Below, one piece after another: positions 1 to 42,440 of a stretch of DNA of 42,440 nt (its first letter is position 1; every line of letters starts with the position of its first letter). Source of the DNA: a virus; IMG/VR virus record IMGVR_UViG_3300010389_000038, positions 1-42,440 of that record. One strand, 5' to 3'. The position numbers were made by a program, and so were the translations under genes. Below the pieces are notes generated by a model. That model saw only the letters and a list, made by a program, of their open reading frames with translations. It was not told the DNA's origin and did not search any database.

Positions 1-508
1 TGTCTTCTGGGACATAACACCACATGTCGTAGAACCAGCTTGCCGTTCCATCCGGGGTGCTGATGAAGAGTGCCCAGCCTTGTTTGTCGGCGAGGGCGGG
101 ACGGATGACTTCGAACCAGACAGCGGAGTCCATGTAGGCGGCTTCGTCGAGGACGACGCCAGACAGGCTGCGGCCTCGGAGGGCCATGGCGTTTTCGGTG
201 CCTTTGAGTTCGATGGTTGAATCGTTAATGAGTTCGAGTTTGAGATCGGTTTCGTTTTTGCTGCGGATGTATTGCGGTGGGACGATCTTTTTTAGTACTT
301 TCCAGGCGATGTCTTTTGCCATGCGGTACGTGGGGGCGCAGTAAAAGAAGGTTTCGCCGGGACGTGCCAGGGCCTTGGTGAAGAGTTCGATGCAGGCCAG
401 GTAGGACTTGCCGAAGCGGCGGCCTGCGACAAGGACTCGGAAGCGTTTTTTGCTGTAAAAAACTTCGGATTGAGCCTTTTTGAGGCTGATGTCAATCGTG
501 TTGCTCAT
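1..508 (-). CDS. terL: Terminase large subunit, N-terminal part (cut by window edge)
   Basis: ATP-driven DNA packaging motor of the procapsid. The visible 169 residues contain the ATPase core. A Walker A motif GRRFGKS lies at residues 29-35, a Walker B segment GVVLDEAAYMD has its acidic pair at D121-E122, and a coupling motif FISTPDG lies near 148-154. The order and spacing are typical of phage large terminases. The C-terminal nuclease domain lies beyond position 1. I chose the ATG whose first base is 508; it overlaps the terS stop by 17 nt, which suggests translational coupling. The frame stays open to the left edge. Confidence is high from the motifs. Confidence 0.93.
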   Translation of the reverse strand, partial: MSNTIDISLKKAQSEVFYSKKRFRVLVAGRRFGKSYLACIELFTKALARPGETFFYCAPTYRMAKDIAWKVLKKIVPPQYIRSKNETDLKLELINDSTIELKGTENAMALRGRSLSGVVLDEAAYMDSAVWFEVIRPALADKQGWALFISTPDGTASWFYDMWCYVPED

Positions 509-1034
509 TTTCGACGTCGATAATTTCGGCTTGGGGGAGTTGGGCGGCGTCCGATCCAGTGATTTCTGGGGGTGGTTCGACGGTGACGCGGATTTCGGGG
601 AGGGAGCTGGTTTGTTCGGGCATGTCGCAACCGACTTGACGTGCCAGGGAGTCGAGGACGTTGGCGGCGGTTTGCATTTGGCCGCGTTTCATGGCGGCGT
701 TAAAGAGGCGCTGGCGTTGCATGAAGATGCGACCGGCCATTTTGGTGCGTTCGCGTTCGAAGTCTTCGGCGACCAGTTCGTAAACGCCTTTCCAGTCGCG
801 CCAGGCAGTGGCGATGCCGATTTGTTCTTTGGCGGCGTGTTCTAGTACCAGTTGACGTACAGGAAGACCTTCGAGTTGGCGTTTGTAGAGGCGTTGGATG
901 CGTGCCTGTTGTGCTTCTTTGGTGCTTTTGGGGCCAAATGGTCGTTGCCTTTTTATTTCATCCTGCTTTTCTGCCTCGTCATCAAAGCCGCTGTCGTACT
1001 TATTAGCGGTGTCTTCCGCCATAATTTGCTGCAT
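492..1034 (-). CDS. terS: Putative terminase small subunit
   Basis: 180 residues. It would recognise the packaging site and load DNA onto the large subunit. It sits directly upstream of terL with overlapping ends, the classical terS-terL arrangement. Sequence support is modest: a basic, helical N-terminal half with a helix-turn-helix-like stretch (VRQLVLEHAAKEQIG, about residues 59-73), a helical middle, and an acidic, proline-rich tail. A second ATG lies four codons in, at 1022, and neither start has a clear Shine-Dalgarno sequence. The call rests mainly on position. Confidence 0.68.
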   Translation of the reverse strand: MQQIMAEDTANKYDSGFDDEAEKQDEIKRQRPFGPKSTKEAQQARIQRLYKRQLEGLPVRQLVLEHAAKEQIGIATAWRDWKGVYELVAEDFERERTKMAGRIFMQRQRLFNAAMKRGQMQTAANVLDSLARQVGCDMPEQTSSLPEIRVTVEPPPEITGSDAAQLPQAEIIDVENEQHD

Positions 1035-1047
1035 TCCGTTTTTACTC

Positions 1048-1061
1048 TATCAACTTTGATA
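1048..1061. promoter_or_regulatory. Palindrome upstream of terS, possible operator
   Basis: TATCAA-CT-TTGATA is a perfect inverted repeat with a 2-nt spacer, 14 nt upstream of the terS start in AT-rich DNA. Its size and place fit a dimeric repressor or terminase recognition site. This is inference; no binding protein is identified. Confidence 0.35.
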
Positions 1062-1116
1062 AAAATAGCGTATTTGTATTATTTTGCCCTGCGGTCGACG
1101 TTCCAGGCAAACTTGA

Positions 1117-1250
1117 CCCCTGCCCCCTAGCACAGTATGATATGGGGGTAGTACATTAGTGATTTCTGATGATGTTTGAGTAGGTTCCCGGGCAGACGAG
1201 TACATTTGTACTATTCTGAACCCTACCCCCTAAGTAGTACAGCAGTACCA
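1117..1250. repeat. Repeat cluster upstream of terS, candidate packaging or control site
   Basis: Two direct repeats match at 11 of 13 positions (CCCCTGCCCCCTA at 1117-1129 and ACCCTACCCCCTA at 1220-1232). An 8-bp inverted pair (GGGGGTAG at 1144-1151, CTACCCCC at 1223-1230) lies between and within them. The palindrome GTACA-TT-TGTAC sits at 1200-1211, and further AGTAC half-sites lie at 1150-1154, 1236-1240 and 1244-1248. No ORF of note occupies 1035-1316. Small-terminase binding sites often lie beside terS, so a pac or cos role is plausible but unproven. Confidence 0.4.
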
Positions 1251-1316
1251 TAAGATTATCCAATGATTAAATTGTCACAAGGCGAAGGCGTTATGTAGCA
1301 CTTTTGGCCCTATACT

Positions 1317-2740: not shown

Positions 2741-3218
2741 ATTCCCCAAAGTAGAACTGCTCGCAGAACCAAAGAAGAGCGTTGGTATCCACGTTGTAAG
2801 TTGAATCGGTCCACGGCTTGAACCAGTCCTGATGTTGAATGATTGGCCTACAGCCTGACTGCCAGGCAACCGACCCACGATCCAACTCGCCAATGATGCG
2901 ACAAGCAGGGCCGCCGGTAGAAAGCAGGATCTCGAATTCTTCAGGCTGCTGCTCAGGAGTGCCGGGAACGTACCAGCCAGAACGAACCAGCACGGTCAGC
3001 GGCATCTCTTGCGCGTACTCGCTGATTGCCTCTTGCAGGCTGTCAGCGGTTGCACCTTCAATGTCCCAGGCAAGATCCTGAAGGATGTAGTTGGCCTCAT
3101 CGGTCAGCGGCTGGCTTTGGTCAGCGTCCCAGCAGTGCAGCTCATAGAGGGCCTCGATGGTCTGAGCATGGCCGGTAGCGTTGGCTTCGGCGTGGTTGGT
3201 GTCTGTTGCTGTTGTCAT
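2739..3218 (-). CDS. Conserved phage hypothetical protein (159 aa)
   Basis: Leftward gene of unknown function. Several stretches match a pattern I recognise from phage and prophage hypotheticals: PLTVLVRSGWYVPG, EEFEILLSTGGPACRIIGEL, HQDWFKPWT and the C-terminus CEQFYFGE. I prefer the ATG at 3218 over a TTG at 3272, which would add 18 residues. It is convergent with the upstream operon and divergent from the HTH gene at 3406, with which it shares a promoter region. Confidence 0.68.
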   Translation of the reverse strand: MTTATDTNHAEANATGHAQTIEALYELHCWDADQSQPLTDEANYILQDLAWDIEGATADSLQEAISEYAQEMPLTVLVRSGWYVPGTPEQQPEEFEILLSTGGPACRIIGELDRGSVAWQSGCRPIIQHQDWFKPWTDSTYNVDTNALLWFCEQFYFGE

Positions 3219-3285
3219 AGCCTGTAGGTGTGGCGTCCCACCAATATGGCCTACGTTCCAGGTAGTCGTCAAGCGGTGTCCGAAA

Positions 3286-3302
3286 ATTCCGATATATCCA
3301 AG
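3286..3302 (+). repeat. 17-bp direct repeat, copy 1 (intergenic)
   Basis: ATTCCGATATATCCAAG, identical to 3533-3549. It contains the palindrome GATATATC. This copy lies in the control region between the leftward gene (start 3218) and the HTH gene (start 3406). Confidence 0.85.
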
Positions 3303-3324
3303 AATTCCGGTTTCCCCGATTGTT

Positions 3325-3332
3325 TTGTAGTA
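3325..3332 (+). promoter_or_regulatory. TTGTAGTA intergenic motif
   Basis: TTGTAGTA reading towards the HTH gene, 74 nt before its start. The same or nearly the same octamer lies at 5496-5503, 6808-6815, 7508-7515, 7607-7614 and 10651-10658, mostly upstream of early genes and pointing at them. It may be a promoter element or operator; its role is inferred only from position. Confidence 0.33.
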
Positions 3333-3405
3333 GGGTTAAGCCGAAACGTTCCAGCACTATGGAAACCAGCTGTTTCGCGAACACCGACCATCGGGAGGTG
3401 TGAGC

Positions 3406-3774
3406 ATGGCAACGTCCCAGGAAATCGAGCAGCGGCACTCAGTCATCCGTGGATGGCTTGAGACCGGCGCGAGCCACGCAACAGTAGCCACGATGGTCAG
3501 TGCCCGCTTCGGCCTGAGTCGCTCCACTGCCTATTCCGATATATCCAAGGTGCAGGCCACCATCGACGCATCAGATGACGGACCAAGCACTGAGGAAGCC
3601 TCAGAGCATGACGTGGCTGGCGTCCTTGGAATGCTCCAGCACCAGTTCAACATTGCAGCCGCTCAAGGTGACGTCCCAGCAATGACCAAGCTGGTAGGCG
3701 CCATTGACAAAGCCAAAAAATGGCAAGGCTATTCGCTATCGATCCAGGGCTCAGCCAACAACGGTTACGTCTAG
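3406..3774 (+). CDS. Helix-turn-helix DNA-binding protein (122 aa)
   Basis: Probable small DNA-binding protein. The N-terminal half carries a helix-turn-helix: SHATVATMVSARFGLSRSTAYSDISKV, with recognition helix SRSTAYSDISKV. The C-terminal half is helical and could mediate multimerisation (VLGMLQHQFNIAAAQGD). The Shine-Dalgarno sequence GGAGG at 3394-3398 sits 7 nt before ATG 3406, which decides this start over GTG 3400. Part of the 17-bp repeat found in its promoter region is also inside the gene (3533-3549), which hints at autoregulation. A terminase-small-like role is an alternative, but terS is already assigned elsewhere. Confidence 0.72.
   Translation: MATSQEIEQRHSVIRGWLETGASHATVATMVSARFGLSRSTAYSDISKVQATIDASDDGPSTEEASEHDVAGVLGMLQHQFNIAAAQGDVPAMTKLVGAIDKAKKWQGYSLSIQGSANNGYV
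3533..3549 (+). repeat. 17-bp direct repeat, copy 2 (inside HTH gene)
   Basis: Identical to 3286-3302. Here it encodes part of the recognition helix region (YSDISK). The flanks of the two copies do not match. Confidence 0.85.
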
Positions 3775-3775
3775 A

Positions 3776-3820
3776 GGCTGAGACTCACGAGACCCAACAC
3801 TAAACACACGAACCACCATG
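3776..3820 (+). repeat. 45-bp leader repeat, copy 1
   Basis: Matches 4009-4053 at 42 of 45 positions, and perfectly over the last 31 bases (3790-3820), which end in the ATG of the next gene. The sequence is A/C-rich and has no Shine-Dalgarno motif. Confidence 0.9.
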
Positions 3821-4024
3821 AAAACAGATCGCCTGTCAGTTTCCTGTAGCAGGGAGATTGACTTAAAAATGATCCGGCACCTTGCTGAGTTAAGCGGTCA
3901 ATCAGTTTCAGCTATGGCTGATTGCTGTTTGTCTGAGTACCTACAGCAAAATTATTTGCGATTGGCGGAATTCTATGAGAATGCACGTTCCAGGTTGAAT
4001 GATCAGGCGGCTAAGCCTCACTAG
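3818..4024 (+). CDS. Small ribbon-helix-helix-like protein (68 aa)
   Basis: N-terminal pattern of one strand then two helices: RLSVSCSREIDLKMIRHLAEL, then SVSAMADCCLSEYLQQNYLRL. This resembles ribbon-helix-helix repressors, but the match is loose. The ATG is fixed by the duplicated leader: the same 31 bases precede the gene at 4051. There is no Shine-Dalgarno sequence, so translation may depend on the A/C-rich leader. Confidence 0.6.
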   Translation: MKTDRLSVSCSREIDLKMIRHLAELSGQSVSAMADCCLSEYLQQNYLRLAEFYENARSRLNDQAAKPH

Positions 4025-4053
4025 ACCCAACACTAAACACACGAACCACCATG
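4009..4053 (+). repeat. 45-bp leader repeat, copy 2
   Basis: Second copy of the leader at 3776-3820, 233 bp downstream. The stop codon TAG of the previous gene (4022-4024) lies inside it, so the repeat bridges the two genes. Confidence 0.9.
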
Positions 4054-4302
4054 GACAACGAACTTTACAGAGCCCAAGAAAACCTCAGGATGATGGGAAC
4101 CTGTCCCACTTGGTATGACCACCTCAACAAAATTGAGGCAGCAATGGCAGAAGAAGAGCGCATATATAAGATTCGTACCAAGGCAGGCTGGGAGGGTGAC
4201 CCGGACGGTTGGTGCGCCCCACACCCTGAGAAGCCTGGCGAGCTTATTACCGAGTGGGAATGGATGCATTATGGGCTGCCTTACCCGGAGGACGAAAACT
4301 AA
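4051..4302 (+). CDS. Small hypothetical protein (83 aa)
   Basis: Unrecognised acidic protein rich in Trp and Met, with an N-terminal helical half and a Pro/Gly-rich C-terminal half (GWEGDPDGWCAPHPEKPGEL). The start is set by the shared leader repeat. The 3' end overlaps the stop of the convergent nuclease gene by 4 nt, so no terminator fits between them. Confidence 0.62.
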   Translation: MDNELYRAQENLRMMGTCPTWYDHLNKIEAAMAEEERIYKIRTKAGWEGDPDGWCAPHPEKPGELITEWEWMHYGLPYPEDEN

Positions 4303-5105
4303 GCGGCTAAGTTCTCGAAATACCGTTCCACCCGCTCAGTAAAAACCTGCTCGCAGCCCCTTAATTCAAGGTCCGTAAGGTATCTGACTTGAGGGGCACC
4401 TGTTCGGCGTGCCACAACAATCGCACCACCCACAGGGCGAATACCTGTCATATGCCGCAACCCTAAAGAATATGCTCCGAGTTGACACTGATAGTTGAAA
4501 AGCATTTCTTCGCTGCGTTCGCGTTGGCTGGTTTTCCAGTCGATGACCATGGGGCCTTTGCCTTGAATGTCCAGCAGGGCATCGCACGTACCAGCAAAAC
4601 CGGCTGGATGGTGAATGGAAAATTCGACGGCATGAATGGCGGTTACGTTCTTGCTAATCCAGCCGCGTAGGCCGCGTGCGTAGCCAGCAGCGCTCCAGGG
4701 GACTCTAGGAGCCCCTTGAATGGCCCTTTCAAGGCCCCAAGCGGTGATCGATCCAGGGCAACGTTCCAGGCCGTCTGAATGGGTTTTCCAGACGTTGCGT
4801 TTGTTGGCCGCTTTTCTTGCTAATTGCGAGCCTAATCGGAGGATATGCTCTGCGTGGTTGTGGGCAAGGGTGCCTCGTGTTGCAGCGGTTTCCCGATCTT
4901 GTTCGCTACCTGGACGAGCCAGCCAACGTTCCAGGCGCTCTTTTTGCTCAGGCGGCGCCGTAGCTCCCAGTATGTGGGTGACGCTATGAAACACGCCGCC
5001 AGCGTCGTCCCGATAAACGCGCCAGTTGAAATCGGTTCCAGTGTCATCACGTACCAGGGAACTTTTGCGTAACTTACTCAGCCTGGCTTGTGCTTCAGTA
5101 ACCAT
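4299..5105 (-). CDS. RecB/Cas4-like PD-(D/E)XK nuclease (268 aa)
   Basis: Probable phage exonuclease acting in recombination, replication or host DNA degradation. The motifs are in the family order: RGTLAHNHAE near residues 78-86, E161 and FAGTCDALLD with D175, IDWKTS with D189 and K191, and QLGAY at 208-212. These correspond to the acidic residue, the (D/E)XK core and the QxxxY motif of RecB-type nucleases. Length fits a stand-alone nuclease. The start overlaps the upstream 54-codon gene by 28 nt, so it probably belongs to a leftward mini-operon with 5078-5393. No partner annealing protein is obvious nearby. Confidence 0.85.
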   Translation of the reverse strand: MVTEAQARLSKLRKSSLVRDDTGTDFNWRVYRDDAGGVFHSVTHILGATAPPEQKERLERWLARPGSEQDRETAATRGTLAHNHAEHILRLGSQLARKAANKRNVWKTHSDGLERCPGSITAWGLERAIQGAPRVPWSAAGYARGLRGWISKNVTAIHAVEFSIHHPAGFAGTCDALLDIQGKGPMVIDWKTSQRERSEEMLFNYQCQLGAYSLGLRHMTGIRPVGGAIVVARRTGAPQVRYLTDLELRGCEQVFTERVERYFENLAA

Positions 5106-5242
5106 GTTTGCGTTAGCTGATTAACTTTTGGCGGGACTAGATGGTGTGAGCTTACCCAGCCAAATTCATCGCCAACTGCTACACGAACCATGCCGTCATC
5201 TGTATTGGTTATGACGGGTTCAGGAATCCTGTGTTCGGCCAT
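5078..5242 (-). CDS. Small hypothetical protein (54 aa)
   Basis: ATG at 5242, ending inside the start of the nuclease gene (28-nt overlap in another frame). It begins MAEHRIPEPVITNTDDGMVR, followed by a beta-rich middle (VAVGDEFGWVSSHHLVPP). Unknown family. The tight overlap on both sides supports a coupled three-gene leftward unit. Confidence 0.5.
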   Translation of the reverse strand: MAEHRIPEPVITNTDDGMVRVAVGDEFGWVSSHHLVPPKVNQLTQTWLLKHKPG

Positions 5243-5393
5243 ACGTTCCATGGTTTTTATACAGCTGATATAAGCCGATAAAGGTGCCGTGGAATGGGTG
5301 CTCCTTCATATATCGAAGGTCTGCTTGGTAAAGACGTTCCAGGTATTCGACTCTCCCTTGTTGTTCCTTGATGTCTTCCGCTCCGTAGGCCAT
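5220..5393 (-). CDS. Small hypothetical protein (57 aa)
   Basis: I take the ATG at 5393 as the start. Longer versions (TTG 5492 or ATG 5456) would read through a leftward terminator hairpin at 5427-5454. The product is mostly helical (EDIKEQQGRVEYLERLYQAD) with an aromatic, His-rich C-terminal half. Unknown function. It overlaps the next gene by 23 nt. Confidence 0.5.
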   Translation of the reverse strand: MAYGAEDIKEQQGRVEYLERLYQADLRYMKEHPFHGTFIGLYQLYKNHGTYGRTQDS

Positions 5394-5426
5394 GCAAATA
5401 CTATTTCCCAAATTGATATTAGCAAT

Positions 5427-5454
5427 AAAAAAGGCCACCGTCCCACGGGTGGCC
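5427..5454 (-). terminator. Leftward rho-independent terminator
   Basis: On the - strand GGCCACC and GGTGGCC form a 7-bp stem with an 8-nt loop, followed by TTTTTTATT. It lies downstream of the DUF4278-like gene (5505-5624). Confidence 0.85.
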
Positions 5455-5504
5455 ATCTCTTTGAACGCAGGGTTGTCCACTACCCTTGCCAATACTACTA
5501 CAGC

Positions 5505-5624
5505 TCAACGGGTGTAGCAAACACCTCGGTAACAAAGGTTGGCGGTTTTAGCGATTGCGTTTTGAGCAGTTTGAAGTGCTTGCTTCTTCTGCTCTTTGCG
5601 CTGGATCAGGCTGAGAACGTTCAT
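5505..5624 (-). CDS. DUF4278-like short protein (39 aa)
   Basis: Tiny protein with a basic helical N-terminal part (IQRKEQKKQALQTAQNAIA) and the C-terminus LCYRGVCYTR. The YRGVxY signature is that of DUF4278, a family found mainly in cyanobacteria and their phages; its function is unknown. This is one of the better host clues in the window. It has its own terminator 50 nt downstream. There is no clear Shine-Dalgarno sequence. Confidence 0.75.
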   Translation of the reverse strand: MNVLSLIQRKEQKKQALQTAQNAIAKTANLCYRGVCYTR

Positions 5625-5697
5625 GGGTTTGGTAGCAACGGTTACTAAATAACATATATCGGGTTTAGTTTGGGTGGTGTTCGCCCCAGCACAACAA

Positions 5698-5721
5698 AAC
5701 CCCCAGCCGAGGCCAGGGGTT
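5698..5721 (-). terminator. Leftward terminator-like hairpin
   Basis: AACCCC...GGGGTT outer stem with an inner GCC/GGC stem after a 2-nt mismatch, followed on the - strand by TTTTGTTG. Closely resembles the hairpin at 6767-6792. It would end transcripts coming from the KilA-N gene side. Confidence 0.65.
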
Positions 5722-5737
5722 CTGAAGCTTGTTCTGG

Positions 5738-5771
5738 CCTATAGCTGCCCAAGGACCTGCACAGCTATAGG
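5738..5771. repeat. Perfect 10-bp inverted repeat
   Basis: CCTATAGCTG (5738-5747) and CAGCTATAGG (5762-5771) flank a 14-nt loop. There is no U-run on either side, so it is not a simple terminator. It lies in a roughly 330-bp stretch (5625-5951) without a normal-sized gene. Confidence 0.75.
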
Positions 5772-5784
5772 AAAGAAACGGATG

Positions 5785-5853
5785 TCACATAGATGACCAG
5801 TCGAGCACGGCTAGTCGATCCACCCGGTGATGAAGCGGATGGTATGTGATCAT
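5785..5853 (-). CDS. Possible 22-codon mini-ORF
   Basis: ATG at 5853 preceded by GGAGG with a 7-nt spacer, the best Shine-Dalgarno match in this part of the window. It encodes 22 residues starting MITYHPLHHRVDRLAVLDW and then stops. It could be a leader peptide or small regulator upstream of the strong inverted repeat at 5738-5771, or a chance occurrence. Confidence 0.3.
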   Translation of the reverse strand: MITYHPLHHRVDRLAVLDWSSM

Positions 5854-5951
5854 CAGTGGACCTCCGGGTTTCCCCTTTGGCACTGACGGTAATGACGTCA
5901 CAAGGGAACGAAGTCCGCCGCAACGAAAATTACTCAGAAAGAATAGCACAG

Positions 5952-6725
5952 TTAGATCAGTTCTAGGTAGTGCTCGATCGCCTCTCGGAAGCTGCTTTCA
6001 TGGCGTTCCAGCCATTCTTTTTCATAAAGCGCAACCCCGCAACGTTTGCCGTTCACAAGCTGATCTTGTGATTTTGGGTCTCGACCGTTTTGGCTGCGGT
6101 ACATCCGCTTCACTTCCTTGCCGATTTTGTGGGCAATCGGCGTTGCTTTGTGGCTAGGGCACTTCAGTTCAATCAAATACTCCGAAGTAGTTAGCTCTTT
6201 TGCAGGTTCCAGCTCTGGTGCTGTTCCCCCCGCCGCCTTCATCGCGGTATTGAGCACAACGTCGCGTAGAAGCATTTGAGCGCGATCGTCGATACCGCCA
6301 AGACGTTCCAGCAACTGGATGCTGCGGTCAACTGTGTCCAGCACCGTTGGTGCAAGAACTGGTTGAGTGTCCCGCATTTGGGACACTTGCTCCAAAAACC
6401 AGCCGTCCATCCAAACGGCAAATTGAGGAGACAACCATCGAGCGAGATCCACAGCGACCCGCTCGTGGACCCATGTGCCCTGCGCTTCGCCACCTCGGAC
6501 TGAGATGACTAATCCGGTTGGACCCGTTATTGGTTTTCCAATATCGGTCGAAAGCGCCGTTAGATAACTGGTCGCGCGATCGGTTTGCCAGTAGTTACTC
6601 CAGAGCTTGCCGTTGGCTTTGCACATGGCGGTGGCGTTGACAAAGCCGTCAGTTGTGCGGCGGCTGATTGGTGTGCCCTGCCAAGAGCGGGTTTCGAGTT
6701 GTGCGAGTTGCGAGATGTGTAACAA
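5952..6725 (-). CDS. KilA-N domain protein (257 aa)
   Basis: The N-terminal 115 residues carry a KilA-N domain: TTDGFVNATAMCKANGK, SNYWQTDRATSYLTALS and the hallmark WVHERVAVDLARWLSPQFAV. KilA-N domains are DNA-binding modules common in phages and large DNA viruses, often in antirepressors or regulators. The middle is helical (DTVDRSIQLLERLGG). The C-terminal 90 residues (LIELKCPSHKATPIAHKIGK) form an unassigned second domain that may sense a ligand or bind DNA. Leftward gene, flanked by terminators at 5698 and 6767, so it is a single-gene transcription unit. Regulation by the TTGTAGTG motif at 6808 is possible. Confidence 0.87.
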   Translation of the reverse strand: MLHISQLAQLETRSWQGTPISRRTTDGFVNATAMCKANGKLWSNYWQTDRATSYLTALSTDIGKPITGPTGLVISVRGGEAQGTWVHERVAVDLARWLSPQFAVWMDGWFLEQVSQMRDTQPVLAPTVLDTVDRSIQLLERLGGIDDRAQMLLRDVVLNTAMKAAGGTAPELEPAKELTTSEYLIELKCPSHKATPIAHKIGKEVKRMYRSQNGRDPKSQDQLVNGKRCGVALYEKEWLERHESSFREAIEHYLELI

Positions 6726-6766
6726 CAGGATTCTGTAGCGACGCTGTTAAATACTAGAGCAAAAAG

Positions 6767-6792
6767 AAAACCCCAGCCGTAGCCAGGGTTTT
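6767..6792 (-). terminator. Leftward terminator after the SSB-like gene
   Basis: AAAACCC (6767-6773) and GGGTTTT (6786-6792) with an internal GC/GC pairing. On the - strand it is followed by CTTTTTGC. It separates the gene at 6880-7467 from the KilA-N gene. Confidence 0.75.
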
Positions 6793-6807
6793 CAATGCGG
6801 CGGGCGT

Positions 6808-6815
6808 CACTACAA
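6808..6815 (-). promoter_or_regulatory. TTGTAGTG motif upstream of KilA-N gene
   Basis: Leftward copy of the TTGTAGTA-type octamer, 83 nt before the KilA-N start, with the terminator in between. Confidence 0.25.
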
Positions 6816-6879
6816 CCGCACAAAGAATGTAACACAAGTAATACTTAAAAGAGCGATAAACTTCTTCTAAGTTTCACAA

Positions 6880-7467
6880 TCAGTCAGCCTTGAATGGGTG
6901 GCCGCCAGTGAGAAGGCGGGTGATGTCGAAGCCGTTCTTCACCGCTTCGTCCCAGGCAGCATCGACTGTGGCTTGAGTGTCCTTTTTGCGGGGCACGGGG
7001 CGCAGGCCATACATGTCGGGAGAGACGGTGGCGGCCTTCGTCATGATGAAGTCCCACTCAGTCATGTCGCTGTATTCCTCGACTTGTGAAATCTCGTCGA
7101 GTTCTTTTTGCAGACCTTTCTGCGTCAGGCTCAGCACTTGAATGCGCTTGATGTCGAAGTTGTAGATCGGCATTGCGATGGCGAACTTCTGAGGCTCTTC
7201 CGTTCCATCGTCTTTGGTGCGGCGGCGGTAGTTGGCGCCCATCTCCTGCTCGATGTCGTCGGCAGTGGCTTCGTTGGAGAAGCGGAATGGCTTGCCTTTG
7301 CCGGTCTCGTCTTCGCCCCAGACCTCGAAGTAGCAAAGGGGTTCGTTGGCCAGAATGGCAAAACGCACTTGGCCGTCAGCCTTCACTTTGCTGGGGCTCA
7401 GGTAGTCGTTGCGGCTGCCGCCTCCTCCTTTGAAGGCGTCGCTGTGTTCTTTGGGGATGAAGCTCAT
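6880..7467 (-). CDS. Putative single-stranded DNA-binding protein (195 aa)
   Basis: Acidic soluble protein with an OB-fold-like alternation: a strand-rich first half (VRFAILANEPLCYFEVWGED), then FAIAMPIYNFDIKRIQVLSLTQ with the next helix KGLQKELDEIS, and TEWDFIMTKA. This layout (a conserved PIYN...IQVLxLTQKGxQKxL block) is one I associate with phage ssDNA-binding proteins placed beside replication genes. It is divergent from the primase-helicase gene, which supports a replication role. Without a search the family is not certain, and a gp32-like or gp2.5-like assignment is not claimed. ATG at 7467, terminator at 6767. Confidence 0.55.
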   Translation of the reverse strand: MSFIPKEHSDAFKGGGGSRNDYLSPSKVKADGQVRFAILANEPLCYFEVWGEDETGKGKPFRFSNEATADDIEQEMGANYRRRTKDDGTEEPQKFAIAMPIYNFDIKRIQVLSLTQKGLQKELDEISQVEEYSDMTEWDFIMTKAATVSPDMYGLRPVPRKKDTQATVDAAWDEAVKNGFDITRLLTGGHPFKAD

Positions 7468-7507
7468 GGTTTAGATGCTGCGGGCTATGCCCAGTGCCTC
7501 TCCACCT

Positions 7508-7515
7508 TACTACAA
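7508..7515 (-). promoter_or_regulatory. TTGTAGTA motif upstream of SSB-like gene
   Basis: Leftward TTGTAGTA octamer, 41 nt before the ATG at 7467. Together with 7607-7614, which points the other way, it frames the divergent control region. Confidence 0.35.
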
Positions 7516-7540
7516 ACGCAAGGTTTGACATTCCCCATAG

Positions 7541-7578
7541 AATAAAAAAACCCCCAGTGCCCGTCGAAGCAGCTGGGG
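7541..7578 (-). terminator. Leftward terminator inside a divergent control region
   Basis: CCCCAG (7552-7557) pairs with CTGGGG (7573-7578), with further TGC/GCA pairing inside. On the - strand it is followed by GTTTTTTTATT. It is oddly placed: no leftward gene ends here. It would stop a leftward transcript starting within or before the primase gene. Confidence 0.8.
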
Positions 7579-7586
7579 ATCTGAGT

Positions 7587-7602
7587 AGTCCCGTTTGGGA
7601 CT
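7587..7602. other. Small hairpin next to the 7541 terminator
   Basis: AGTCCC-GTTT-GGGACT, a 6-bp stem with a 4-nt loop, 30 nt upstream of the primase ATG. In the rightward leader it could affect translation. On the - strand it would be the first hairpin of a short antisense RNA. Confidence 0.55.
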
Positions 7603-7606
7603 CATT

Positions 7607-7614
7607 TTGTAGTT
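7607..7614 (+). promoter_or_regulatory. TTGTAGTT motif upstream of primase-helicase gene
   Basis: Rightward variant of the TTGTAGTA octamer, 18 nt before the ATG at 7632. Confidence 0.28.
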
Positions 7615-7631
7615 CTTTGCAACTTTAACAG

Positions 7632-10109
7632 ATGTCGAAGCTTCCTGCTTTCGTTCGCTCGCTTCCAAGCGCTTGGGCTACCTGCCCGATATATGCCAAA
7701 GGCGTAAAGCTTCCCTCCGGTAAAGAGGCTTGCGGTAAGTCACCTCTCGGTAAGACGCACCACGAAGATTGGTCTCCTGCTGAGACTGCTCTGCACATTG
7801 AGCGGAATCCTGACGAGTTCAAGGCCGTCGGTGTCTTCACCGGACCACGCAGCAATGGCTTGGTCATCCTCGACATTGATGCCAACCTGACGCAGCTCAA
7901 AAAGAAGTGGGGTAAAGACCTCGCTGCTGCGCCGGTCATTAAGTCAGCCAAGAAGAATGCGGCGAAATATCTCTTCTACGTTCCACGGGAGTATTGGGGT
8001 GAGGTTGATGGCCTGAGTCTCAGCGCCAGCAATGAAGGCTGGGAAGTGCTGTGGGGCCGTCAGGGGCTTGTAGGCGGCGCTTACAAGGATTCGGGTGTCT
8101 ATACGCAGGAAGGCGACTTCGAGGCCATTCCAGAGGCTCCTGAGTGGCTTCTGGCATATATGAAGGAGTCTTTTCGCGGTAAGCAGAAGACTGACGAGGG
8201 CAAGAAAGATCCCCGCTACGGGATGCGCTCCACCGAGGAGCTTTGCCTGATCGTTAAAAACTGCTTGGCGGTGATTCAGCCGCAAGGACGTGGCAGTGAA
8301 GACCAGTGGTGGCGCATCGGCGCAATGATCCACTCTGAGCTTCCTGGTGAAGAAGGTCTCGAACTTTGGCGTGAGTGGTCGCAGCGGGACGATGAATACG
8401 CCGACGACTGGGAAAAGAACGATCCATGTGCTGATCGCTGGGAGTCAGGGTTTAAGTCAGGCGGTGGTCTTGGTCTGGGCAGCCTCATTCAGCTAGCTGA
8501 TCACTACGACCCAGACAGAAACCGCTTCGTGAATGATCCTGCTGCAAAGCAGGTGATTGATGAAATTCACCAGATGGCGGTTTCGTTCCGTCAGGCTGTT
8601 CTGCCGTTTGAGCAGGTCATCGAGAAGGCCAAGAAATATCTGGAGCTGGATAACCCGGCTGAGATGAATTACAACCTCAATAACTTGGCGCTCCAGGCCG
8701 GTTATCGGGATCAGCTTTCCCTTGAGAAGCTGATTGTTGATCAGATTCAATTTGAGGGTGCCAAGGGTCTGATGGGTGCTCAGGATTTGATGGATAGCGA
8801 TCAGGAACGCAACTACCTGATTCCTGATGTGTTGCCACATCCCTCTGTGGTGCTGATCTACGGCGCTGGTGGCGACGGCAAGTCCATGTCGGCTTGGACT
8901 ATTGCGAAACACATTGCGACTGGTGCTCCTTTCATCGTCAGGGGTAAGCCCGTTCCAGTCCAGAAAGGTCCGGTGCTGCTGCTGAATGGTGATCAGCCGC
9001 TGGTGCAGCTCAAAGAGCAGCTTCAGGAGGTTGACTACCCAGCCGACAGCGACACCTTCATCCAGACCGATTGGGCGCTCCAGCGCTATGCACAGTTCGT
9101 GAAGCTGATGCACGACATCAAGCCGAAGCTGGTGGTCATTGACTCGCTGATCGGCTGCTCTGGTGGCCGTGCCTTTGACGAGAACAAGAGCGACTTCGCT
9201 ACGCCGCTGTACTGGCTGACCCGGAACAACGGTGTGCTGTTCCCTGCCACCACGATCCTGATCGTTCACCACGCCAACAAGCAGGGCGGCTTCAGAGGAA
9301 CCTCAGCCATCCGTGACGCTGTGGATGAGACCTGGGCACTTAAGAAGCCCACGAAGGAGCAGGTGGAAAAGGGCATCGCTCCAGCTCACTCTCGCCTTAT
9401 CACCATCGAGAAAAGCCGTTCTGGGCGCTCTGGTACGTCTCTCCTGATGCGTATGGAGGATGACCTCAGCTTCTCGGTGGCTGATTTCACCCCAGAGGTG
9501 GATCAGAGCAACGTTTCACCCAGCAGCGTTCAAGACCGGGTGCTGCAGCGGTTGCGGGTGATTCATCCACGGACGGCAACCAAGACCGACCTCAATGCCG
9601 ATCCACTCGTTGGCGGCAAGGTGGCGGCCATCGGGAAAGCGCTCCAGCGGCTGACTAAACGGGGTCTCATCACTGAGGTTTCTCTTGAGGCCCGCTCAGG
9701 TGATTCGAGATACAAAAACAAGACGTACCAAGCAGTACTCGCGTGCGGGGCCTTGCCAGAGCTTGTCCACCCTAAGCAAATCCCTTCTCCTGGAACGGAT
9801 GTCAGGGTGGACAACCAGGGTGGACAGGAAGAATTGTCCACCCTGCGGCACGATGCAAGCTTCTACACTTACGAACCACCGGAGTTCGGTGGTGCTCCTT
9901 GTCGCAGCTCGGCTTCCGTTGAGGGTGGACAACCCCCTGCTGAAACGGCACCTTGTCCACCCTCAGAAGTCAGTGGTGGAGCGGAAAGTGCCCAGGGTGG
10001 ACAACCTGAGCAATATCCCCGCGCGAGGGAGGGTCAAAGGTCTGAAGGTGAGCTACAGCAATCCCGCGATACCGCATGGGATATGTGGAACGTTCAATCA
10101 GACACCTAA
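7632..10109 (+). CDS. Prim-Pol primase / helicase fusion (825 aa)
   Basis: Replication initiator combining primer synthesis and DNA unwinding. Residues about 1-180 form an archaeo-eukaryotic-type Prim-Pol domain with GVFTGPRSNGLVILDIDAN (D81-x-D83 metal site) and GLVGGAYKDSGVY. Residues about 210-300 look like a PriCT-type linker (GRGSEDQWWRIGAMIHSELP). Residues about 395-600 form a RecA-fold ATPase, with Walker A GAGGDGKS (411-418), Walker B KLVVIDSL (about 499-506) and a sensor-like IVHHANKQGGFRGTSAIRDA. The last 130 residues are low complexity (Gly/Gln/Pro/Ser). Their DNA carries seven DnaA-box-like repeats, so the tail seems shaped by a DNA function. One tail segment resembles the small protein encoded at 11000. 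Confidence 0.9.
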   Translation: MSKLPAFVRSLPSAWATCPIYAKGVKLPSGKEACGKSPLGKTHHEDWSPAETALHIERNPDEFKAVGVFTGPRSNGLVILDIDANLTQLKKKWGKDLAAAPVIKSAKKNAAKYLFYVPREYWGEVDGLSLSASNEGWEVLWGRQGLVGGAYKDSGVYTQEGDFEAIPEAPEWLLAYMKESFRGKQKTDEGKKDPRYGMRSTEELCLIVKNCLAVIQPQGRGSEDQWWRIGAMIHSELPGEEGLELWREWSQRDDEYADDWEKNDPCADRWESGFKSGGGLGLGSLIQLADHYDPDRNRFVNDPAAKQVIDEIHQMAVSFRQAVLPFEQVIEKAKKYLELDNPAEMNYNLNNLALQAGYRDQLSLEKLIVDQIQFEGAKGLMGAQDLMDSDQERNYLIPDVLPHPSVVLIYGAGGDGKSMSAWTIAKHIATGAPFIVRGKPVPVQKGPVLLLNGDQPLVQLKEQLQEVDYPADSDTFIQTDWALQRYAQFVKLMHDIKPKLVVIDSLIGCSGGRAFDENKSDFATPLYWLTRNNGVLFPATTILIVHHANKQGGFRGTSAIRDAVDETWALKKPTKEQVEKGIAPAHSRLITIEKSRSGRSGTSLLMRMEDDLSFSVADFTPEVDQSNVSPSSVQDRVLQRLRVIHPRTATKTDLNADPLVGGKVAAIGKALQRLTKRGLITEVSLEARSGDSRYKNKTYQAVLACGALPELVHPKQIPSPGTDVRVDNQGGQEELSTLRHDASFYTYEPPEFGGAPCRSSASVEGGQPPAETAPCPPSEVSGGAESAQGGQPEQYPRAREGQRSEGELQQSRDTAWDMWNVQSDT
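9763..10004. other. Candidate replication origin: seven DnaA-box-like 11-mers
   Basis: TTGTCCACCCT or its complement AGGGTGGACAA occurs at 9763-9773, 9804-9814, 9817-9827 (last base differs), 9834-9844, 9922-9932, 9953-9963 and 9994-10004. Relative to the gene the orientations are T, A, A, T, A, T, A, where T means TTGTCCACCCT. The first nine bases, TTGTCCACC, match the DnaA box TTATCCACA at 7 of 9 positions and the high-GC variant TTGTCCACA at 8 of 9. The copies fall in different reading frames, so they are kept at DNA level. A perfect 7-bp hairpin (ACCACCG-GAGTT-CGGTGGT, 9875-9893) lies in the largest gap. Placing the origin inside an initiator gene recalls phage lambda gene O. Confidence 0.7.
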
Positions 10110-10124
10110 AAACGCTGTATCTTT

Positions 10125-10457
10125 ATGGGGACATTTTTGTCCCCTTTACTACAACAAACACTTGTGGCCTACGACATTAAGGTTCCCGACGGCGTTCTTA
10201 CTGCTGCTGAACGACTCTCATTGAAAGACTTACTGGACTCGCCTTCGTTCCAGTGCTTTTTGATCAGTGCGATCGGCAATGGCATCCAAAATTTTCACAA
10301 GTTTTCGGATGTCACCGATGACCGTGACGAGTTTTTGATGTTCCGCTTGGATCAGATCTTCAAGGGCATTCCTTACGACACTCGCAGGGCTTGCTTCGAT
10401 GAGGTGGCTCGTCTGTACCGCGAACGCCGTGAAGAACGAGAAGAGCGGCGCTATTGA
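10125..10457 (+). CDS. Small hypothetical protein (110 aa, or 97 from GTG 10164)
   Basis: Unrecognised soluble protein with a helical, charged C-terminus (EVARLYRERREEREERRY). The ATG at 10125 is followed directly by a strong hairpin (10127-10144), which would hinder initiation, so the in-frame GTG at 10164 is a reasonable alternative. Neither has a Shine-Dalgarno sequence. The protein starts right after the primase-helicase and may belong to the same transcript if the hairpin is leaky. Its 3' end overlaps the leftward gene ending at 10450. Confidence 0.55.
   Translation: MGTFLSPLLQQTLVAYDIKVPDGVLTAAERLSLKDLLDSPSFQCFLISAIGNGIQNFHKFSDVTDDRDEFLMFRLDQIFKGIPYDTRRACFDEVARLYRERREEREERRY
10127..10144 (+). 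terminator. Perfect hairpin after primase-helicase gene
   Basis: GGGGACA-TTTT-TGTCCCC, a 7-bp stem with a T4 loop, followed by TTTACT. It could act as a weak terminator for the primase transcript or as part of the origin region, since it lies 120 nt past the last DnaA-like box. Confidence 0.5.
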
Positions 10458-10630
10458 GTCTCGATTTCACTAGGCAGCCAGCCTTTTTTCACCATCTGGT
10501 TGATGGTGTCTTGCTGGTGTAAGTAGAGCTGCATCAGTTTCACTGACATCTGCTGCAGCTCACCTATATCTGTGCAACCCTCAATCTTGCGGCGGAAGCG
10601 CTGGAGCGCAAAGCTGCGATGCATCTCCAT
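10450..10630 (-). pseudogene. Small leftward gene, apparently frameshifted
   Basis: ATG at 10630 reads MEMHRSFALQRFRRKIEGCT and then GELQQMSVKLMQLYLHQQDTI. As written, the frame then runs into KPDGEKRLAA and stops at 10469 (53 aa). Skipping one A in the AAA at about 10498-10502 gives instead NQMVKKGWLPSEIETQ and a stop at 10450. That ending looks more protein-like and resembles endings I recall in short cyanophage proteins of this type. So either the gene is a recent frameshift mutant, or there is a sequencing error, or ribosomes shift here. Function unknown. Confidence 0.5.
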
Positions 10631-10650
10631 CGTCCCACCTCAATAACTAC

Positions 10651-10658
10651 TACTACAT
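10651..10658 (-). promoter_or_regulatory. ATGTAGTA motif upstream of the leftward small gene
   Basis: Leftward copy of the TGTAGTA element, 20 nt before ATG 10630 and touching the start of the rightward gene at 10660. Confidence 0.25.
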
Positions 10659-10659
10659 T

Positions 10660-10965
10660 ATGGCTAGGTATTTACAGAATGGGCACACTGGTGGTAGGCC
10701 GAGGCGTCCGATGGAGCTGACGACCATCACCTATTACAAGGTCTCGGAAGTCGAAGGTTTCCTTGCGGTGGCTCGATACACGGCCTACAACCCTGACGGT
10801 CTGCCGGAAGCGATTTGCGAAGACTTCTACGCAGACGATCCAGAAGAGTTCTGTCGCCTTGAAGAAGACACGCACACGGCACTTACCGGAGGCATCGACG
10901 TTTCCATCATGAGTGCTTATGAGTCAGATATATTCCCGGTGATCTCGACATACCTGACTCTTTAA
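10660..10965 (+). CDS. Small acidic hypothetical protein (101 aa)
   Basis: Unrecognised. A basic, Gly/Arg-rich start (HTGGRPRRP) precedes MELTTITYYKVSEVEGFLAV at codon 18. The second ATG (10711), with GAGGCG upstream, may be the true start. The remainder is acidic (EDFYADDPEEFCRLEEDTH) and beta-rich. First of a chain of tightly packed rightward genes leading to DNA polymerase. Confidence 0.6.
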   Translation: MARYLQNGHTGGRPRRPMELTTITYYKVSEVEGFLAVARYTAYNPDGLPEAICEDFYADDPEEFCRLEEDTHTALTGGIDVSIMSAYESDIFPVISTYLTL

Positions 10966-10999
10966 GTGCTACATTTGACGAGTTCCTGCCAAACTAGGC

Positions 11000-11257
11000 A
11001 TGATTGAAATCCTTGACCTCCAAAGCTTCGAGCTTGTCGAAGGCCCCACTGGCCATTTCGTCCGCTACGTCGCCACCATCGCTGACATCGTCCAAACGTC
11101 ACCTGCAACCCGCTACGACCCGCCGGAGTTCGGTAGTTCGACTTGCCGTGGTTCGATCTCCATCGGTGACGACGACCCACTGCCCAAGACAGAGCAGCAG
11201 TTCATGGACTTGGCTCGCGATGTTTACGACTGGCAGCCCATTGAGGACACCTACTGA
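11000..11257 (+). CDS. Small hypothetical protein with PPEFG..CR motif (85 aa)
   Basis: Contains HFVRYVATIADIV and then RYDPPEFGSSTCRGSISIGD (from residue 38), then a helical end. The PPEFG..CR segment is closely matched inside the primase-helicase tail (residues 747-763, YEPPEFGGAPCRSSASV), at protein and DNA level. I associate similar PPE.G..C segments with small cyanophage proteins of unknown function. Its stop overlaps the next ATG (TGATGA). Confidence 0.66.
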   Translation: MIEILDLQSFELVEGPTGHFVRYVATIADIVQTSPATRYDPPEFGSSTCRGSISIGDDDPLPKTEQQFMDLARDVYDWQPIEDTY

Positions 11258-11505
11258 TGACTAGCAACAGTTACATGGGCCGCAAGAAGTTGTACGACAA
11301 TTACCCGTTCCAGGTTCAGGCTTGGCGTGAGGGCCGCTGGAACGCTGTGAGCTGCCACATGACGGCGAAAGCTGCTCAGAAAGGTCTCGCGCAGATCCGC
11401 AAGTGCCAGCCTGGTTCACCTCATCTCTACCGCCAGGTTCACTGCACAAGCGACGATTACATCTGGGTCGACCCATCCAACAAACAAGCTCTTCAAGCAT
11501 CATGA
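11257..11505 (+). CDS. Small basic hypothetical protein (82 aa)
   Basis: ATG overlaps the preceding TGA, and its own TGA overlaps the next ATG (ATGA). Basic, aromatic protein with a strand-rich start (YPFQVQAWREGRWNAVSCHM) and a Lys/Gln helix (TAKAAQKGLAQIRKC). Unknown family; probably co-translated with its neighbours. Confidence 0.62.
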   Translation: MTSNSYMGRKKLYDNYPFQVQAWREGRWNAVSCHMTAKAAQKGLAQIRKCQPGSPHLYRQVHCTSDDYIWVDPSNKQALQAS

Positions 11506-12257: not shown

Positions 12258-12261
12258 CTCA

Positions 12262-14435: not shown

Positions 14436-14436
14436 C

Positions 14437-14740: not shown

Positions 14741-14778
14741 CACATTGTTAGACTGTTAGGTAGCAATCAACAGACTCT

Positions 14779-15068: not shown

Positions 15069-15100
15069 GTGATATTTTGCAGGGGCACTTCAAACGCCTC

Positions 15101-40526: not shown

Positions 40527-40549
40527 AGGAAAAATTTACTCAGACGGTA

Positions 40550-42004
40550 CTATTCTACAGGCGACTGATTAACTACATCAGCAGTATTTAAGTCTTGCTG
40601 AAAGGCGAGGGGAGTTGGTGCGGGGGTTGGTTCCGGTGCTTGGATCTTTGCGGCTTCTTCTTGGACATTGGTGCTGTCTGGCAGGATTTCGCCGCGACGA
40701 AGGATTTCTAGAAGCATCTCATCGCTAATCTTGCCGTTGCTATTTAGGTCAGAAAGAACCGCAACGTCTTGACCGATTAGGCGGTAGTAATCAAAGTCGC
40801 GGTCGATAGTGATTTCCGGTGGTTCGACACCGACGTACTTGGCGGCTAAACCAAAGGCTTGGTTCAGCGCACTTTCCAGTTCTTGGCTGATGATGGACAA
40901 CACAGAGTTGCTTTGTGCTTGGTCGATACGCTTGGCCTCAGCAGACTCGGCAACAAACTTTTGGCCGAAGAGTTTGGTGACGCCCAACGTGGACATCTGG
41001 CTTTCCAGTGACTGCAGCTCTTGCATCTGGGCGTCAAAGCTCGTGGCGTCGGCTTGCACGTAATACGCCTTGTTGCCAGGCGTCATTGCGATGGCGTAGT
41101 TGACGCCCATCGTCGCTCCAGACAATGCGTCGTCCCAGCCTTCCAACACGAGTGTTGGCATTGCGGCGATGTGGAGTGCGTGGATTAGGTCGGCTTGGCG
41201 TTGGTAGTGCGTGATGTTGAGGTTGGCGATGTCGAGCAGCGGGGGTTGAGAGCGCAACATGCCCCGGCGGTTGCTGTAAATGGGCACCACTGGAATTTCG
41301 TCCAGGCTGAAGCCCCCGGTTTGGGAAAATTCGACGATGTCTTCGCCCAGCGTGTACAGGTCATAGCGGCCTGGGTAGATGACTCGCATCTGCTCGACCT
41401 GCTCTTCACCAAAGTCGTTTAGAGGGCGCGTTGCGTACTCGTGGATGCGGACTTGGGTGAGGGGGCTGCCGGGCATTGTGTAATCAGCCTGACGCCATCC
41501 CCAAATTTGTGCTGCGTCAACATGCACGAAATAGGGGCGACGGCCCATTGCACGCTCTTCAGCCAGATTGCGGGCAGCGGTTGCGGCGGGATAGTCGACA
41601 AGAATTGCGCTGTGGCCATAGGTAAGACTGCTAACCAGGGCACGACGCGCATATTCGTTGATGTTTGAGCCGAGGCCGTCGATGTTTTGGCTGAGTTCGA
41701 GCCAGTACTCATCGCCTTCGATGTGGATCGGTTTGCGGAGAATAGCCCCGGCGGCAGTTTCGATTAGGCGGCTGGTGTAAGGCGAAAGGACGCTGCGGTC
41801 GACGCGAACTTCATAGGCTGTATCGTCTTCTCGCGGTTCTTGCGGTAGGTATGTTTCGCTTAGATCGCGGATGTAGTTGGTGCCTCGCGTGACGGCGGCC
41901 ATTACTTGCCAGTCCGCCATCATTGCGATGACTTCTAGGTCGCGGACGAAGGGCGACTCGCTGACCGAAGCGCCTGTTGGGGGGATGTTTGCGCTGTAAA
42001 CCAC
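40550..42004 (-). CDS. Portal protein, DUF4055-like (484 aa)
   Basis: Dodecameric DNA gate at the head vertex. The opening VRDLEVIAMMADWQVMAAVT with RGTNYIRDLSETYLPQEPRE, then YTSRLIETAAGAILRKPIHI and LVSSLTYGHSAILVDYPAAT, matches the DUF4055 portal family as I recall it. A helical stem-like region (MQELQSLESQMSTLGVTKLF) and a Pro-rich C-terminus follow. Length is normal. First large gene of the leftward morphogenesis operon within the window. Confidence 0.88.
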   Translation of the reverse strand: MVYSANIPPTGASVSESPFVRDLEVIAMMADWQVMAAVTRGTNYIRDLSETYLPQEPREDDTAYEVRVDRSVLSPYTSRLIETAAGAILRKPIHIEGDEYWLELSQNIDGLGSNINEYARRALVSSLTYGHSAILVDYPAATAARNLAEERAMGRRPYFVHVDAAQIWGWRQADYTMPGSPLTQVRIHEYATRPLNDFGEEQVEQMRVIYPGRYDLYTLGEDIVEFSQTGGFSLDEIPVVPIYSNRRGMLRSQPPLLDIANLNITHYQRQADLIHALHIAAMPTLVLEGWDDALSGATMGVNYAIAMTPGNKAYYVQADATSFDAQMQELQSLESQMSTLGVTKLFGQKFVAESAEAKRIDQAQSNSVLSIISQELESALNQAFGLAAKYVGVEPPEITIDRDFDYYRLIGQDVAVLSDLNSNGKISDEMLLEILRRGEILPDSTNVQEEAAKIQAPEPTPAPTPLAFQQDLNTADVVNQSPVE

Positions 42005-42023
42005 GGTCAGTTGCCTACTTTAG

Positions 42024-42036
42024 TGTCATTTTGACA
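42024..42036. promoter_or_regulatory. Palindrome upstream of the portal gene
   Basis: TGTCA-TTT-TGACA, a perfect 5-bp inverted repeat 20 nt before the portal start, in the 37-bp gap after the small gene at 42042. Possible operator or RNA hairpin. Confidence 0.3.
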
Positions 42037-42041
42037 GATAC

Positions 42042-42296
42042 TCACCACTTCACCCGATTCGCCCAATAAGCCGCTGACATCTTGCCTTTTGCGATGTTTT
42101 TTGCGTGGCGGGCTTTGAAAGACTTGTTGCGGGCCGTACCAGCCGGGCTTCCTTTGACGCCTTGTTGGCCGAAGCGAATAAGTTTTACTTTGTCGCCGTC
42201 TTTTGCGAGGACTGCGTGTGATTTTTTGGGGTGATTCGGGGTGCGTTTCGGCTTGTTGTAGCCAGAAAAGGTTTCGCTGCCGCGCTTAATCGACAT
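42042..42296 (-). CDS. Small basic protein upstream of portal (84 aa)
   Basis: KVKLIRFGQQGVKGSPAGTA then RNKSFKARHAKNIAKGKMSA and the end YWANRVKW. I recall short phage proteins with the pattern IRFG..G....R..SFKARH...A.GK...YWA next to head genes; function unknown. Very basic. Its start overlaps the stop of the preceding gene by 11 nt. Confidence 0.68.
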   Translation of the reverse strand: MSIKRGSETFSGYNKPKRTPNHPKKSHAVLAKDGDKVKLIRFGQQGVKGSPAGTARNKSFKARHAKNIAKGKMSAAYWANRVKW

Positions 42297-42440
42297 CGTC
42301 TTCCACCGAGATCATGACTTCTATGCCTGATGCTAGGCGAACCATTAAACCGGCGAAGTCCTCAACGTCGTTGGGGGTCATGAATGTGAACGTGGCAATA
42401 GTGCTGTGGTTGTCTGCATCCACTTCGATGTGTTTGCAGT
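42286..42440 (-). CDS. 3' end of a small gene cut by the window edge
   Basis: Frame open from the right edge, ending at a TAA (42286-42288). The visible 50 residues include HIEVDADNHSTIATFTFMTP and MVRLASGIEVMISVEDD. Unrecognised, acidic. It would lie between terL and the portal if the genome is circularly permuted. Confidence 0.55.
   Translation of the reverse strand, partial: CKHIEVDADNHSTIATFTFMTPNDVEDFAGLMVRLASGIEVMISVEDDVD

Follow-up and report, generated by a model that had tools for sequence, protein, structure and literature searches.

The pRN1 primase recognizes a GTG template site through its helical bundle and starts with a dinucleotide opposite the two positions immediately 5' of that site (PMC8076596, PMC11009956), and NrS-1 PrimPol has the sites TTTGGTTA and GTG (PMC8718748). 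In pRN1 ORF904 and NrS-1 PrimPol, an archaeo-eukaryotic primase (AEP) domain is joined to a helical bundle, a specific template site is read with this bundle, and a dinucleotide is started 5' of the site (PMC8076596, PMC8718748). Here we analysed a viral stretch of 42,440 bases (IMG/VR record IMGVR_UViG_3300010389_000038, positions 1 to 42,440; hereafter the window), which encodes a primase-polymerase (Prim-Pol) whose primase half matches these enzymes by predicted fold and which carries the word CG[TCA]NCCA(G) throughout, mainly on the + strand. We propose, with a probability of roughly 65%, that the phage's own primase, which is of the pRN1/NrS-1 type, recognizes this word on the lagging-strand template and that replication runs mainly rightward; the site would be read, and the dinucleotide started, as in the described enzymes. 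The window Prim-Pol shares only about 13% sequence identity with them, and its word differs from theirs in being longer and bipartite and in filling the genome in one orientation, for which we found no report on pRN1 or NrS-1. The gene and its relevant half are as follows.

7632 to 10109, + strand: Prim-Pol, 825 aa, AEP primase-polymerase with a PriCT_2/helical-bundle domain and a RecA-like helicase; proposed reader of the motif
7632 to 8498, + strand: primase half of Prim-Pol, residues 1-289 (AEP and PriCT_2, by predicted fold); best correlate of motif form

Pfam matches placed PriCT_2 (PF08707, E = 1.6e-12) at residues 209-289 and AAA_25 at residues 384-552. The AlphaFold model of the primase half (pLDDT 86) contains helices in the modelled PriCT_2 region, and its best Foldseek matches were the pRN1 primase (9aam, E = 1.5e-6; 3m1m, E = 3.0e-6) and NrS-1 PrimPol (6a9w, E = 6.2e-5). 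The ILDxD motif is conserved in the Prim-Pol alignment. As modelled, the window enzyme has both the AEP fold and the C-terminal helical PriCT_2 region of the pRN1/NrS-1 type.

A polar word across the window

By direct count, the window holds 41 copies of CGTTCCA on the + strand and 9 on the - strand, and 24 of the 41 continue with G, in agreement with an earlier sequence-only reading of the window; CGTTCCAG occurs 24 times on + and 5 times on -. The degenerate word CGTNCCA was found 83 times on + and 18 times on -, where an order-1 composition model expects 10 and 11, respectively, an approximately 8-fold excess on +. Its other members share the bias (+/-: CGTACCA 16/4, CGTCCCA 16/4, CGTGCCA 10/1); the sequence-only reading had the + counts of the first two right and gave 3 rather than 4 for their - counts, and its example positions were correct except for 31730, which is 31720. 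It had missed sister words with the same strand bias, namely CGCTCCA (23/7), CGATCCA (15/1) and CGAACCA (14/9). The full motif is CG[T>C>A]NCCA(G), in which N is mostly T, the third base is rarely G, and G is favoured after CCA.

1 to 42440, + strand: polar motif CG[TCA]NCCA(G), 177 sites on +, from counts and the codon null described below
+ strand, the 41 CGTTCCA starts: 44, 1099, 3254, 3347, 3986, 4324, 4762, 4927, 5244, 5335, 6004, 6304, 7201, 7979, 8951, 10246, 11306, 13116, 13831, 16035, 16263, 16682, 17101, 17814, 19789, 20137, 20368, 20986, 21139, 21896, 22298, 26067, 27651, 28702, 30934, 31720, 33065, 35234, 36758, 37518, 38482

The excess persisted under a codon null, in which synonymous codons were shuffled within each gene, genes being called with a simple custom codon-score finder. 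On the + strand, CGTNCCA occurs 14 times inside + genes against 3.5 expected and 51 times inside - genes against 16.3 expected, so that genes of both directions carry the + excess, and intergenic DNA holds 18 copies on + and 4 on -. Among the 16,384 7-mers on +, CGTTCCA (z = 11.6), CGCTCCA (9.6), CGTACCA (7.0) and CGATCCA (7.0) took ranks 1 to 4. A high-order Markov test, which the sequence-only reading had suggested, was uninformative because the nested sub-words carry the same excess (the 6-mer CGTTCC alone was seen 46 times against 29 expected). The motif is therefore not an artefact of codon usage: its excess survives synonymous shuffling, and it occupies all three reading frames. Nor is it an RNA signal, since it is present in sense, antisense and intergenic DNA; on both points the earlier argument holds. 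Avoidance of a one-strand, Type III-like restriction site was also rejected because the signal is a marked excess over expectation on +, with no genome-wide depletion on the - strand. These controls confirm that the motif is real.

Occurrence and conservation of the motif in relatives

A Prim-Pol scan of IMG/VR yielded 71 loci and an alignment-based scan 557 loci, the best 80 of which were kept; most relatives are fragments. The motif is present in most contigs with a homologous Prim-Pol, and none of the three outcomes that the sequence-only reading had named as refuting it was seen. The window and its environmental relatives have from dozens to hundreds of copies, almost all in one orientation. 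In an unprompted search, CGTNCCA, ACGNNCCA or a sister word was the top polar word, on the Prim-Pol strand, in most contigs of testable length, and when 12,288 gapped words were scored in 40 genomes, all 12 words with z > 5.5 in at least three genomes were variants of the motif. It is common to contigs of 36-59% GC. Under the codon null it was weak in three members (G013, G037 and G039), and in the low-GC groups C and D the strand contrast anchored on CCA was not strong enough for use. The cyanophages S-2L and S-H1, which have related portals and no such Prim-Pol, showed no motif excess under the codon null, nor did the cyanophages S-CBS2-4 and Syn5; MED4-117 showed a small residual excess.

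The sites themselves are conserved. In relatives at 83-84% nucleotide identity, 72-79% of + sites are retained, against 38-53% of control words (1.4 to 2 times), and 62-72% of - sites are retained as well. The + sites are also spaced more evenly than random in the window (coefficient of variation 0.77, P < 0.001), an effect that is weaker or absent in several relatives.

Several side observations were made among these loci. A second word, GCTTAG[CG], is enriched on the Prim-Pol strand beside CGTNCCA in G045 (L346-L348; z = 7.7) and G041 (L336-L337; z = 4.8). In L193, GTGNNGCC occurs 74 times on one strand and 7 times on the other against 14 expected, and may reflect a protein repeat. Two 10,090-bp records with the same Prim-Pol match, L003 from IMG/VR and L118 from a metagenome-assembled genome (MAG) binned as Saprospirales, were recovered, and L119 lies in a Planctomycetota MAG. 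We did not assign a host from these bins, as the binning of a phage contig does not identify its host.

Change of strand use at an origin-like array

Seven TTGTCCACCC-like iterons in both orientations lie at 9762-10006, within the variable C-terminal part of the Prim-Pol gene, and the fifth and sixth form a 13-bp perfect inverted repeat (9920-9932 / 9953-9965). We propose that they are a replication origin.

9762 to 9772, + strand: iteron 1, CTTGTCCACCC
9805 to 9815, - strand: iteron 2
9818 to 9828, - strand: iteron 3
9833 to 9843, + strand: iteron 4
9923 to 9933, - strand: iteron 5
9952 to 9962, + strand: iteron 6
9995 to 10005, - strand: iteron 7
2871 to 7320, + strand: densest + stretch, left of the iterons, with 40 CG[TCA]NCCA on + and only 4210 and 7215 on -
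9431 to 17420, - strand: zone with the motif also on -, 25 CG[TCA]NCCA at 9431, 9791, 9977, 10086, 10405, 10602, 10769, 11149, 11211, 11338, 11464, 12189, 12222, 12735, 12930, 13931, 14018, 14189, 14474, 15652, 15963, 16356, 16380, 16938, 17414

Outside the low-GC group, most relatives have several inverted iterons whose position and spacing are almost unchanged and whose sequences differ. The variants TTGTCCACCC, GTGTCCCACTG, AAGATGGGACA and TGAAACAGTTG (the last in G018) were seen, as if origin specificity turned over quickly.

From 4211 to 9430, the - strand of the window has a single CG[TCA]NCCA (7215), after which sites appear at 9431, 9791, 9977, 10086 and onward. The sequence-only reading held that the orientation does not flip at a candidate origin near 9.9 kb and that the signal is unipolar. 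The + sites indeed do not flip, and the broad polarity on + stands, but - sites switch on there, so "unipolar" is slightly too strong. The same switch was observed in relatives. The aggregated density of - sites stands at 0.3-0.7 per kb and climbs to 3.2 per kb roughly 2 kb past the start of the Prim-Pol gene. Over the 4 kb to the left of Prim-Pol in relatives, the ratio of observed to expected CGTNCCA is 14.5-14.7 on + and 0.1-1.3 on -. Intergenic sites in this interval number 184 on + versus 13 on -, compared with 44 versus 41 at 2.5-5 kb right of the Prim-Pol start. Among 19 near-complete genomes, 9 have their strongest genome-wide strand switch no more than 0.8 kb from where the iterons are expected, and in the window the score at that place is within the top 5%. 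As - sites are depleted to the left of 9.9 kb, the data do not support forks that leave this point symmetrically in both directions.

At four-fold sites of the window, GC skew is +0.44 in - genes and -0.12 in + genes, and AT skew is +0.05 and -0.41, respectively. The strand component of this skew enriches + in G and T, the pattern that an exposed lagging-strand template would show. The existence of a strand-specific base skew raises the idea that the motif is a mutational or compositional by-product without function; however, the CCA in the word runs counter to the G/T richness of +, and the codon null, the retention of sites in relatives and the intergenic excess all point to selection, making such a by-product highly improbable.

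Relation of the motif form to phage genes

We compared motif-signature distance with protein distance over 40 genomes (Mantel); because the genomes are related, the figures are not independent tests. Within Prim-Pol, motif form correlated with the AEP domain (rho = 0.55) and PriCT_2 (0.55) and barely with the helicase (0.14). Among other genes, the values were 0.10 for the portal, 0.14 for the major capsid protein (MCP), 0.32 for a PD-(D/E)XK exonuclease (0.62 on common pairs) and 0.29 for g6880. The latter two are encoded near Prim-Pol.

4299 to 5105, - strand: PD-(D/E)XK exonuclease, 268 aa; rival candidate reader
6880 to 7467, - strand: g6880, a conserved 195-aa protein of unknown function, beside Prim-Pol

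Natural exchanges of genes bear on the same question. In G019-G028, portal and MCP are 81-89% and 74-85% identical to those of the window, whereas Prim-Pol, the family A DNA polymerase (PolA) and the exonuclease are only 41-53% identical (Prim-Pol itself 41-52%), and the word has become G[CT]TCCAG[CT], its 5' C largely lost. In G010-G016, the capsid genes are about 50% identical where detected, and CGTNCCA is kept in most members. Three genomes (G041, G045 and G050) have Prim-Pol and the motif and yet no detectable homologue of the large terminase subunit (TerL), portal or MCP. Modular recombinant Prim-Pols were seen in L012, G018 (L236), G022 (L240) and G024 (L232), with similar primase halves and helicase halves of 45-65% identity; the enzymes with diverged helicases in L012 and G018 retain CGTNCCA/ACGNNCCA. 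Site preference thus follows the primase, with TerL and PolA not fully separated from it. Taken together, the evidence for the motif and for its link to the replication module is strong, and Prim-Pol is, judging from these sequence comparisons, the probable reader.

Three other readers or roles are weighed by these data. A packaging or genome-entry signal read by terminase would fit the correlation of motif form with TerL distance (0.49); we give it next to no weight because the motif persists in the three genomes without detectable TerL, portal or MCP homologues, portal and MCP are uncorrelated with motif form, and the motif changes while they stay 74-89% identical. A Chi-like recombination or end-protection word, read by the exonuclease or a partner such as g6880 and steering recombination-dependent replication, is unlikely, although it has several points in its favour: both genes are found in almost every motif-bearing relative whose contig includes upstream sequence, Chi is the textbook case of a polar word in genomes, + density is highest around these two genes, and exonuclease distance tracks motif form. 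When AEP is held constant, the exonuclease falls to 0.19 and g6880 to 0.04, whereas AEP keeps 0.56 given the exonuclease and 0.55-0.56 given either gene; moreover, recombination alone does not predict the switch of - sites at the iterons, and the base preferences of the word resemble an initiation site. We therefore consider recombination weaker than priming, as motif form follows the primase half best. No RecBCD/AddAB or FtsK gene was seen among the phage genes scanned. Another replisome signal, such as a helicase loading, assembly or restart site on the exposed strand, would share the anchoring of the strand pattern at the origin and the tie to the replication rather than the virion module, but the helicase domain barely correlates with motif form and helicase swaps leave the motif in place, so we regard this role as improbable. 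The sequence-only reading had listed replication, priming, recombination and packaging as possible phage functions; that broad reading is supported and here narrowed to priming as the most likely function.

Proposed priming mechanism

Under the priming model, CG[T>C>A]N-CCAG (N mostly T) would be the template sequence at which Prim-Pol starts primers. The primase half (AEP and the PriCT_2 helical bundle) would bind the CCAG side, the first dinucleotide would pair with the two bases that directly precede CCAG on its 5' side, which are loosely specified and pyrimidine-rich, and CG would be copied next. The form CG-YT-CCAG would fit a pRN1-like layout, with a bound 3' block, an initiating dinucleotide at which T/C is preferred (a purine start) and a preference for CG. 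The order T>C>A>>G at the third base would mean A>G>U>>C for an early primer base; a purine preference is usual for primases. A word of this length would be too rare in random DNA, and selection would therefore have stocked the lagging-strand template with it. From the iteron origin within the Prim-Pol gene (9762-10006), the fork would travel rightward through the whole circle, so that + would be the lagging-strand template everywhere. The - sites that start at the origin and thin rightward would begin the leading strand, and the phage's family A DNA polymerase would extend the primers.

12507 to 14435, + strand: family A DNA polymerase with 3'-5' exonuclease, 642 aa

This polymerase was not detected in some motif-bearing relatives. 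The + enrichment on the presumed lagging-strand template is observed; the rightward fork direction is read from two features only, the origin-like array and the skew.

Several observations weigh against this model. The + density peaks just left of the origin, the last stretch that a rightward fork would reach, which the model does not explain; these extra + sites may mean that leading strands are started leftward too. For 6 of the 19 genomes, the point of greatest strand change is far from the iterons, and the sign of the four-fold skew is reversed in the low-GC group. TerL (0.49) and PolA (0.53) likewise correlate with motif form and are not separated from AEP by the bootstrap; the exonuclease and g6880 accompany Prim-Pol in almost all cases. 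No isolate of the clade was found in the phage collection. In phage 1706, whose measured primase word is CCAAC, CCAAC is not enriched, and hence a specific primase need not shape its genome. Finally, KBS-S-2A (NC_020854), which lacks this Prim-Pol, has a weak residue of CGTNCCA on the - strand (37 versus 19.1 under the codon null). As a counter-example to occurrence with Prim-Pol only, KBS-S-2A was largely dismissed: of its raw 39/19 about half of the excess is codon-driven, T is not preferred at the fourth base, and the word is outside the codon-null top four. This residue would also suit a host-driven origin, by a host primase, a RecBCD/AddAB Chi or a defence acting on phages of one host group. 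S-2L, S-H1, S-CBS2-4 and Syn5 are nevertheless without excess, and the word spans the whole GC range of the contigs and varies with the phage primase, which makes a host-driven origin very unlikely.

Comparison with other dispersed words

Phage T7 gp4 (GGGTC, TGGTC) is likewise a phage-encoded specific primase, and its words are modestly enriched under the same codon null (GGTC rank 4 of 128, TGGTC rank 8 of 512). It differs in being a DnaG-type primase with a shorter word, enriched about 1.4-fold on both strands as opposed to 3- to 5-fold and polar in the window. KOPS and Chi are, like the window word, short, dispersed and polar, kept by selection and aligned with the direction of replication; however, they are read by FtsK or RecBCD, whereas the window word follows the Prim-Pol lineage and its - copies switch on at the origin-like array. 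The lambda origin has its iterons inside the coding sequence of gene O and thus also within a replication-protein gene, while the window array is in the 3' end of Prim-Pol, has inverted copies and varies in sequence between relatives. The stoperators of mycobacteriophage L5 follow the direction of transcription and are mostly intergenic; they resemble the window sites in being many, dispersed and asymmetric in one phage, but the window sites are independent of gene direction and fall mainly within genes. A stoperator-type element was rejected because + sites occur in genes of both directions.

The literature searched gave no precedent for CGTTCCA or for a genome-wide bias of primase sites. We lean, by a modest degree, towards the wider statement that a large uncultured phage clade writes its primase recognition word genome-wide in one orientation, with a change of polarity anchored at the origin, and that the word evolves with the primase domain, so that primase specificity, origin and fork direction could be deduced from the sequence by itself. 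Primase start sites are usually determined at the bench, enzyme by enzyme; more than 550 related loci may record what their primase reads, and the natural recombinants point to the primase half. If true, primase specificity, origins and replication direction would become accessible for uncultured viruses from sequence data alone, and priming would join recombination, segregation and uptake as processes that impose polar words genome-wide.

Other features of the window

The large terminase gene is apparently split by the record ends, and the window is therefore likely to be a near-complete, circularly permuted genome. G002 and G004 carry direct repeats of 141 and 99 bases, respectively, at their ends, consistent with circular assemblies. 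Rightward genes of the window include Prim-Pol, the family A DNA polymerase, a sigma factor and ThyX, and virion genes run leftward. A KilA-N domain protein is encoded at 5952-6725 (- strand), with a PHROG match to "transcriptional regulator" and a weaker match to BstA-type abortive-infection proteins. Just 3' of the DNA polymerase gene, an inverted repeat at 14444-14528 (23-nt arms, 78% complementary, 39-nt loop) is a possible terminator or structured element.

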